In this document: piece by piece, positions 13,921 through 43,285 of the stretch | How positions within the stretch are numbered: position 1 is the first letter of the stretch | How the letters are laid out: each line of letters opens with the position of its first letter | NCBI RefSeq assembly: GCF_001276715.1 | Contig: NZ_LIUQ01000019.1 | Span: 24,441-88,440, forward strand | Direction: 5' to 3' | DNA from: Planktothricoides sp. SR001 | Lineage (GTDB): Bacteria; Cyanobacteriota; Cyanobacteriia; Cyanobacteriales; Laspinemataceae | DNA: 64,000 bases | Notes under the pieces: generated by a model | What the model was told of the DNA's origin: nothing | The model's input: the letters and a program-made list of their open reading frames with translations, nothing else | Database searches by the model: none | Position numbers and translations under genes: made by a program

Positions 13921-15411
13921 AAGTTATTCCTTTGCCAATGTTTAACCCGTGCCAGTAGTTCCTTTAATTGCTGGAGTAATTGCGGAATCTCTTGCGGTTT
14001 ATTTTGTTGAGCATACTTTTGTACCTTGGCAGCAATTTCTGGCATGAAACGCACCCCGACCGTAGATGAACTGCCCTTGATTTGGTGTGTACGAAGGGCT
14101 AAGGTTTCCATATCGTTACTGGCAAAGGCGGCGATCGCTTGTTCCAGATACATTTCTGTATTGCTGATAAATGCCCCCAGCAATTTTTCTAGGAACTGTC
14201 GATCTCCAAAGCTAATTTGTTGTAGGCGATCGCTGTCTATAATGTTGTCTGTAATGCTGTCTGTAACTTTGTCAAGGATTAAATCATCAGCCGTTGCCGT
14301 TGTCGAGCGAGCGCCTGGGGGTTAGGTTGTTTGCCACCGAGAAATTTTCCCTAAATGCTCCCTATATTCTGCCGATGAACCATTCCGTAACTTTAAATCA
14401 GCCACATAATTCTTTAACTGCTGTAAAAGACTATTTAACTGATTTAACTCACCGATTAACCCATCGGCAACTTTGATGTGATGGGATTTAGCATTTGCTT
14501 GCAAACTTCTGGCAATTTCTGCAATATCTTCGATGCCAACATTCGCACTAGCCCCTTTAATTTGATGCGCCAGTTTAGCCACCAATACCGCATAATAATT
14601 TATCAAACCTTTCTTTAAATCCGCCAAATATCCTTCAGTTTGTTCCAGATAAATTGCCAGTAATTTGATTTCAAAAGCTTTATCCCCGCCGCTAATTTCT
14701 GCCCAACGATGGGGATTAATCAAAGCTAATTTTTCTCCCGGTATTGTTGGGGAATCCATTTTTGCAAAAGCCAAGCTCTTGAGTTGTCACAGGTTTAGTC
14801 AGATAATCATCCATTCCCGCATCCAGGCATTTTTCGCGATCGCCTTTCATCGCATAAGCCGTAAAACCCACCACCACCCTAGGGGCATTTTCTCCTTCCC
14901 GTTGCCGCAGCAACCGAGTCGCTTCATATCCGTCCAACACCGGCATATGACAATCCATCAATACCAGATCATAAGCTTGTAAAGCTAACCGATCCAGGGC
15001 TGCTTGTCCATTTTCCACATCATCCACTTCATAAGCAGGTGAACATAATTAATTGCACTTTTCGCTCCCTGGCGTAAATCCTTGGATTCCCGCCTGTAGG
15101 AAGGAGAGAGAATAGAGAAGAGAGAGTAGAGAATATATTTCCTCTTTCCTATGCATCCTCTTTCCTCTTTCCTCTGATGGGGTCTGTGGTGAATTTATTA
15201 CATCTACTTATCCTAGTTGTTTAAGTTGATTTCGGGTTAATTTTCGATTTATGGGAATATCTTCAAACAATAAAATTTTGATTGAGTCATAATCTTTTTG
15301 GCGGTCAAAATCAGTCAATACATAGTCAGAATAAATAGAAATTTTGCTGGAATTTGTTAACATAGTGTCCTCCGGGATCAACCCCTTACTGGCATTTTGA
15401 TCGTCCCTCAC
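13917..15411 (-). pseudogene. Broken response regulator-HPt-HPt gene
   Basis: Pieces of one signalling protein in gene order. N-terminus to IKILLFEDIPINRKLTRN (from 15411) is the start of a receiver domain; after a MITE (15034-15208) it resumes at YEVDDVENGQAALDRL and contains the phospho-acceptor motif LVLMDCHMPVLDGYEA and the lysine motif LTKPV. A frameshift near 14770 then leads to a first HPt domain (LAHQIKGASANVG) and, after an in-frame TAA at 14322-14324, a second HPt domain (RTHQIKGSSSTVG) ending at 13917. Three separate lesions make it very unlikely to yield the full protein. The final HPt piece overlaps the end of the TIGR03943 gene by 4 bp. Confidence 0.85.
15034..15208. mobile_element. 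MITE copy 1 (175 bp), inside the response regulator gene
   Basis: Ends AGCAGGTGAACATAATTAAT on the left and ...CATCTACT on the right, imperfect terminal inverted repeats, flanked by TA on both sides (15032-15033 and 15209-15210). Removing the element and one TA restores the receiver reading frame (GGA TAT GAA GTG on the coding strand), which proves insertion and gives the target duplication. The middle carries AGAGAATAGAG and CCTATGCATCC repeats that are absent from the other two copies but present at 36350-36440. Confidence 0.9.
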
Positions 15412-36329: not shown

Positions 36330-36478
36330 GGGTGTAGGGTGTAGGGGGAAGAGAGAAAAGAGAATAGAGAAAAGAGAATAGAGAATTTTCCTATGCATCC
36401 TATGCATCCTCTTTCCTATGCATCCTCTTTCCTATGCATCCTCTTCCCCTACACCCTACACCCTACACCCTACACCCT
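36330..36478. repeat. Large inverted repeat between methylase and nuclease genes
   Basis: GGGTGTAGGGTGTAGGGGGA followed by AGAG (about 36330-36353) faces CTCTTCCCCTACACCCTACA near 36440-36462, with AGAGAATAGAG repeats on one arm and CCTATGCATCCTCTTT repeats on the other, then a run of ACACCCT units. The hairpin stands between two convergent genes and may stop both transcripts. Confidence 0.8.
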
Positions 36479-36999: not shown

Positions 37000-37124
37000 A
37001 GTAGGTGAACATAATTAATTGCACTTTTCGTTCCCCGCCAATAGGCTTTGGATTCCCGCCTTCGCGGGAATGACAGCCTTTCTTCTCGTGGGGTCTGTAG
37101 TGCATTTATTTCTGCCCACCTACT
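37000..37124. mobile_element. MITE copy 2 (125 bp)
   Basis: AGTAGGTGAACATAATTAAT ... TCTGCCCACCTACT, flanked by TA on both sides (36998-36999 and 37125-37126). Inside are GATTCCCGCCTTCGCGGGAA and a hairpin. The terminal inverted repeats match about 22 of 27 positions by eye. Confidence 0.9.
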
Positions 37125-42691: not shown

Positions 42692-43161
42692 TCATTGAGT
42701 AAGGGCTTTCGCATTTAGATAACAAATCTTGGCTTTTCATCCATAACGGAATAAGGGCGAAGCATTCCGGTGACAAATCTGGGCTTTTCATCCATAACGG
42801 AATAAGGGCGAAGCATTGCGGTAACAAATCTTGGCTTTTCATCCATAAAATATCTGCCGCAATGCTTCGCCCCTACAGGATTATATAGAAATTGTCATAC
42901 TTAGAAAGTACAAAAAAACCTGTCATTCCCGCGCAGGCGGGAATCCAAAAAACTCTGTACTTCATTCAATAAAAACCGCTATAAGGGCGAAGCATTGCGG
43001 TAACAAATATTGGCTTTTTATCCATAAAATATCTGCCGCAATGCTTCGCCCCTACAGGATTATATTCTACAATTTTTAATAAAAACCGAAAAATTACGGG
43101 AATAAGTTAGGGTTTTTAACTAATAACATATCCCCGTAAAAATTAATTAGTTAATTAACTA
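42692..43161. repeat. GGGCGAAGCATT repeat block
   Basis: Units of TAAGGGCGAAGCATTGCGGT followed by AACAAAT(A/C)TTGGCTTTT(C/T)ATCCATAA appear at about 42755, 42810, 42985, with inverse GCCGCAATGCTTCGCCCCTA at about 42855 and 43035. Between is the CATTCCCGCGCAGGCGGGAA element (42920-42950). No gene. A related copy is at 56935-57005. Confidence 0.8.
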
Positions 43162-43285
43162 AGTAGGTGAACATAATTAACTGCACTTTTCGTTCCCCGC
43201 CGATAGGCTGTGGATTCCCGCCTTCGCGGGAATGACAGTTTTTTTCTCATGGGGTATGTGGTGCATTTATTTCTGCCCGTCTACT
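43162..43285. mobile_element. MITE copy 3 (124 bp)
   Basis: AGTAGGTGAACATAATTAAC ... TTCTGCCCGTCTACT, flanked by TA (43160-43161 and 43286-43287). It is close to copy 2 throughout, including CCGCCTTCGCGGGAATGACA. It ends 12 bp from the 3' end of the next gene. Confidence 0.9.

Follow-up and report, generated by a model that had tools for sequence, protein, structure and literature searches.

A TA-duplicating MITE family with IS630-type ends and mosaic cores in Planktothricoides sp. SR001

Three short elements flanked by TA lie in the 64,000 nucleotides of Planktothricoides sp. SR001 analysed here (the window), one of them inside a gene for a receiver-HPt protein, and they raise the question of what moved them and of how their cores came to differ. 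An initial annotation, made from the letters alone, had described the three as sharing both their ends and TA duplications. TA was indeed found on both sides of all three, while the exact 8-bp tips are confined to copy 2 (AGTAGGTG...CACCTACT), copy 3 having AGTAGGTG...CGTCTACT and copy 1 AGCAGGTG...CATCTACT (Table 1). These tips were dropped as evidence for a family, as their matches are at chance level (28 with at most one mismatch against 23.8 expected). Copies 2 and 3 form hairpins over almost their whole length (z -4.0 to -7.7, the values for copy 2 being -7.2 and -7.7), and the hairpin of copy 1 was no better than those of shuffled sequences (z -1.05). Copy 1 had also been described as longer, with a different core whose repeats are seen again at 36350-36440, and BLAST bore this out (E 3e-16). 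An Rfam scan of the window gave no match. The explanation that we put forward, with considerable confidence, is that of a high-copy MITE moved in trans by an IS630-type transposase, with exchange of blocks and changes of apex among the copies during or after its spread.

The window's own genome (G000) is a draft of 165 contigs with an N run in one MITE copy. It was compared with a conspecific genome assembled as one 7.2-Mb contig (G047), with a congener that supplied an orthologous gene devoid of the element (G001), and with S07.Bin090 (S07), a public draft from a metagenome assembly. The 30 matches of at least 500 bp between S07 and G000 loci are 92% identical in the median. Equating G001 with S07.Bin090 was considered and dropped, as three loci of G001 found no counterpart among the S07 loci sampled.

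Table 1. Coordinates of the elements, their parts and the interrupted gene, as positions of the window
Feature	Position	Strand	Remarks
MITE copy 1, long form with minisatellite core	15034..15208	+	175 bp; tips AGCAGGTG / CATCTACT
TA target duplication left of copy 1	15032..15033		single TA at the empty orthologous site (GGC TAT)
TA target duplication right of copy 1	15209..15210		read from the sequence
GA/CT-rich minisatellite core of copy 1, in place of the palindrome apex	15092..15177		
MITE copy 2	37000..37124	+	125 bp; exact tips; near full-length hairpin
CGTC-1/dRS3-like palindrome ATTCCCGC-CTTC-GCGGGAAT, apex of copy 2	37052..37071		
MITE copy 3	43162..43285	+	124 bp; right tip CGTCTACT
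CGTC-1/dRS3-like palindrome within copy 3	43214..43233		as in copy 2
Free-standing palindrome of the CGTC-1/dRS3-like class	42925..42944		outside any MITE
Stand-alone array, repeats shared with the core of copy 1	36339..36448		BLAST
Receiver gene, 5' part	15209..15363	-	51 codons, then TAA formed at the junction
Receiver domain, 3' part	14716..15033	-	PF00072, E 3.3e-20; same frame without the element and one TA
HPt remnant of the receiver gene, other frame	14322..14774	-	PF01627

The element within the receiver-HPt gene

The occupied gene reaches a TAA stop after 51 codons, which is made up of the duplicated TA and the first base of the element end. Deletion of the element and one TA in silico restored the receiver frame as GGA TAT GAA GTG, just as the initial annotation had stated. 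That copy 1 was inserted within the gene is supported by the congener, where receiver and HPt domains are carried by one open frame of 425 aa (first start) or 413 aa (aligned start), with a single TA (GGC TAT) and no element at the corresponding position. The initial annotation took the sequence itself as proof of mobility, which was too strong a claim on its own and became tenable once relatives were compared, through the empty sites in the congener and the conspecific genome. The copy 1 site itself is occupied in G047 also, the spans being 175 bp in G000 and 180 bp in G047. The gene bears further lesions, namely a stop codon in frame at 14322 and, between receiver and HPt, a frameshift near 14741-14774, and the element is thus not its sole lesion.

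A high-copy family with near-matching ends on IS630 elements of other genera

When the end was extended to a pattern of ~27 bp, 111 matches with at most three mismatches were obtained in G000, as compared with none for a reversed-pattern control. At least 62 paired copies were assembled in G000 (singles lacking a paired right end were left out), 57 of which have TA on both sides, and in the stretches taken from G047 TA was present on both sides of 64 of 68 paired copies. Paired copies in the two genomes measure 114-348 bp, mostly 114-130 bp, and encode no transposase of their own; longer end pairs were not found among the S07 loci. The elements are therefore MITEs, being short, multi-copy, bounded by terminal inverted repeats, flanked by a TA duplication and without their own transposase. 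Copies with non-TA flanks, which the initial annotation had expected to count against such a family, do exist (5/62 in G000 lack TA on one or both sides), and they look like decay of old copies.

Occupied and empty sites were compared between strains, as had been proposed with the initial annotation. The copy at C15:13201 of G000 is matched in G047 by a clean empty site with a single TA, at which the two flank matches overlap by the TA, the 1.5-kb flanks being 99.5 and 99.9% identical; this difference reflects either a gain in G000 or a precise loss in G047. Another empty-like site lies in a paralogous stretch that is 86% identical. Since G047 has the element at the corresponding site for 56 of 63 G000 copies (54 shared, one length variant and one more), recent movement rests on the one clean site.

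Some loci differ in other respects. A 292-bp unit that bears the MITE stands in tandem, twice in G000 (C64:36943-37359) and three times in G047 (6364745-6365457). The copy at C138:180610 of G000 (L269) has lost its left half, where another repeat is found instead, and is complete in G047. The flanks of the G047 copy at 2119692 are split over two G000 contigs, at C15:202048 and C159:3, one of which starts at the MITE, through either exchange between copies or mis-assembly; MITE-mediated rearrangement at this place was dropped as a candidate, mis-assembly being possible.

Duplication of TA is typical of IS630/Tc1-mariner transposases. No DDE_3 transposase was found on the window's contig, in keeping with the earlier statement that the window holds none. 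Across the order, 62 of 291 genomes and 40 of 121 genera have the end pattern, with zero matches to the control in every listed genome. Such ends are present at IS630-related loci from other genera (L215, L218, L219 and L220). At L215, a 331-aa IS630 transposase lies between two inverted ends spaced ~1.18 kb; it matches DDE_3 and scores 212.7 bits against the NCBIfam NF033545 IS630 equivalog (cut-off 100), and a search of solved structures with the transposase returned 0 matches. At L218 and L219 the ends adjoin transposase-like reading frames, as judged by eye. The MITE ends are hence common to IS630-family elements, all in other genera, and the proposal of a TA-duplicating MITE with IS630-type ends is upheld by a complete IS630 transposase between near-matching ends. 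The search for an IS630 with matching ends succeeded only in part, as none was found among 23 DDE_3 places in G000 and 26 in G047. One fossil relative has retained no more than the inner box. The partner is thus missing, divergent or in an unsampled strain.

Both strains carry a resident IS630 (L136, L411, L412) with ends TAAGTAGGTAGGTG..., once in G000 and twice in G047. The transposase of the G000 copy is divided between two overlapping reading frames, the first of which recurs in both G047 copies, so that the frameshifting may be programmed.

The MITE usually has as its core a palindrome, ATTCCCGC-nnnn-GCGGGAAT, which carries a TGTC tag and a CCA tail. This palindrome has the layout of the CGTC-1/dRS3 class, namely a TGTC/CGTC tag, an 8-bp stem, a 4-base loop and the CCA tail. 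CGTC-1 repeats correspond to dRS3 of Neisseria, and the survey that described CGTC repeats, in the text available to us, placed them in five other phyla and identified no transposase dedicated to them (PMC3733652). Cyanobacteria are absent from the phylum list in that text, and free-standing CGTC-1/dRS3-like palindromes were observed here both in the window (42925-42944) and in G047. In long forms the apex is replaced by a minisatellite or by other palindromes, and at several sites common to G000 and G047 the minisatellite is not of the same length in the two genomes.

Two other accounts of the mobile unit were weighed against this background. The elements might belong to the resident IS630, which is at hand in the genome, has paired ends ~1.19 kb apart and matches the tips at 7/8 bases after the TA. 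Its ends, however, share only the outermost bases, diverge inside the first 8 and accumulate 9/27 mismatches, whereas the IS630 ends at L215 and L220 match along the whole end with 1-5 mismatches to the generic family end. We regard this assignment as unlikely. As far as sequence comparison can tell, the transposase that moved the MITE was probably a lost relative of the IS630s of other genera, and the resident element is the less likely source. Alternatively, the palindrome could itself be the mobile unit, as in REP/RAYT-type elements, with the ends incidental to it. Apart from its CGTC-1/dRS3 layout, this account draws on the palindrome's occurrence outside paired copies; ~1 Mb of G047 holds 38 such palindromes within paired copies and 37 elsewhere, with the tag in 37/37 of the latter, and among the 25 outside palindromes listed at least six are unpaired MITE pieces by context, as judged by eye. 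Most copies, however, end exactly at TA with IS630-like 27-bp inverted ends, and long copies without the palindrome still have both ends, which disfavours the REP/RAYT account to the point that we give it almost no credence. A MITE with IS630-type ends, of which the palindrome is a replaceable apex, is the reading retained below.

Copies are mosaic, and some differ in place between strains

The usual model of a MITE family is one of clonal descent from a master copy. Among the present copies, block alleles (left GATAG/TAAAT, apex type, ATATGG/ATGGGG and right tip) were found in most combinations, and linkage persists to some extent between neighbouring blocks, as it does for ATATGG/ATGGGG and the block that follows. 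The same block alleles are carried by S07.Bin090. Mean r2 across the three genomes was 0.41-0.51 for sites 1-2 bp apart, 0.07-0.09 for those 11-20 bp apart and 0.03-0.06 for those 21-40 bp apart, so that linkage is near background past ~20 bp; this sample comprised 47/62 copies of G000, 55/68 of G047 and 99/101 of S07, copies without a recognisable palindrome being left out. Mantel correlations between left-part and right-part distances, calculated on unique copies with a recognisable palindrome (41, 50 and 90 in G000, G047 and S07, respectively), were r=0.17 in G000 and 0.06 in S07, the value for G047 being given below. The left and right halves of one copy thus appear to be inherited almost independently. 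A PHI-type test on all sites gave p values of 0.03, 0.0005 and 0.0005, and a conservative haplotype bound with complex alleles required only 3 (G047), 4 (G000) and 10 (S07) events.

Real clonal comparators were sought and rejected, other G047 repeats being too short, tandem or coding-repeat-like, and a MITE family in a genome of another genus (G265; L374-L403) having nested and block-like cores too. The G265 family has the same end type, and its nested cores are palindromic.

Comparison of 56 ortholog pairs between G000 and G047 revealed changes in place. The apex or loop was changed in 4/56 pairs, one of them by an exact loop inversion (CTTC to GAAG), a kind of event that has been described as a product of template switching (PMC8794818). 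In the C11 copy, a block that differs between orthologs matches other family copies, with 0 differences in 300 flank bases. Both alleles were present elsewhere in the family for 9/30 ortholog difference blocks (the C15:202048 pair being left out), and for 4/7 non-apex differences in short copies, 8.5% being the share of random substitutions expected to match another copy.

These patterns could also have arisen if the copies were non-recombinant, as old star-like descendants of one master whose shared alleles came from recurrent mutation or from the import of several diverse founders. The PHI-type test was not significant when sites were thinned to at least 4 bp, and 38/56 ortholog pairs are identical, which makes any exchange slow on the strain time scale. 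Against this, multi-base alleles (GATAGGC and TAAATC, unrelated apexes, CACCTACT and CGTAAACT) occur in all four combinations, which are hard to make by recurrent point mutation and unexplained by founder import. Moreover, clonal simulations on the inferred tree gave a mean r of 0.50-0.56, and in none of the three genomes did any of 100 simulations (0/100) give a left-right correlation as low as that observed. Clonal descent is thus distinctly improbable. An artefact of short-read assembly could likewise shuffle the blocks, given the many contigs and the N run of G000 and the metagenomic origin of S07, but the single-contig G047 gives the same pattern with its 50 unique copies (r=0.04, beside 0.27-0.77 in clonal simulations), and we consider such an artefact highly improbable. 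On balance, we favour, somewhat beyond even chances, a reading in which the MITE copies of one genome form a recombining population, with blocks 20-60 bp apart near linkage equilibrium through repeated ectopic exchange and through flips and swaps of the hairpin apex, and in which the MITE doubles as a vehicle for palindromes of the CGTC-1/dRS3 type, a class with no known transposase, and as their partner in exchange.

In the history that we propose, an IS630-type transposase acting in trans would have recognised ends of ~27 bp (TAAGTAGGTGnnCAnAATTAATTGCAC) and inserted the MITE at TA, which was duplicated, and one long copy would have broken the receiver-HPt gene before the split of the two conspecific strains. 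After or during this spread, short blocks would have been exchanged between copies, and the CGTC-1/dRS3-like palindrome at the apex would have been inverted or would have given way to other palindromes or to minisatellites. The exchange may have proceeded by ectopic heteroduplex with patchy repair, or by template switching at the hairpin.

The MITE itself is ordinary; it is the shuffled structure of its population that is unusual, the mechanism of exchange being inferred. Three points go beyond the initial annotation: the IS630s of the own genome mismatch the ends, a minisatellite stands in the long core in place of a REP-like palindrome, and the copies have a mosaic structure. If dispersed copies of ~125 bp swap blocks of 10-20 bp freely, copy trees and ages would be unreliable for such families, and ectopic exchange between very short repeats would be more effective than is usually assumed. 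REP palindromes of an orphan class may have their carrier in this family, which also offers a natural system for hairpin-apex mutation, in which two conspecific genomes and a draft relative make the rate of exchange measurable.

Comparison with known systems

Among the titles and abstract openings searched, which most subscription papers lay outside, none describes a bacterial MITE family in linkage equilibrium. The present family resembles IS630/Tc1-mariner-type MITEs in its TA target duplication, ~27-bp inverted ends, non-coding nature and disruption of a gene. It differs from them in that no matching autonomous element was found in the host genome, and in that its cores are mosaic, with nested palindromes or minisatellites. 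Among cyanobacterial MITEs, Nezha is reportedly active. The MITEs of Anabaena sp. 90, likened here by description alone, comprise 147 complete or partial copies of 77-541 bp, and share with the present family the breakage of genes, the hairpin folds and the lack of an IS with similar inverted repeats in the genome; in contrast, neither block exchange nor matching IS630 ends elsewhere are described in the available text of that report (PMC3542288). BrickBuilt of Porphyromonas gingivalis likewise holds a minisatellite within a MITE, with a 23-nt unit, and the available text raises recombination from site to site as a possibility (PMC4596501). It belongs to another phylum, and the minisatellite is here one of several alternative apexes of one family. 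Finally, the apex shares with CGTC-1 REPs and dRS3, as described in the accessible text, the 8-bp stem, 4-base loop, CGTC/TGTC tag and CCA tail (PMC3733652), the difference being that the palindrome is here also carried inside an IS630-type MITE, and in a cyanobacterium.
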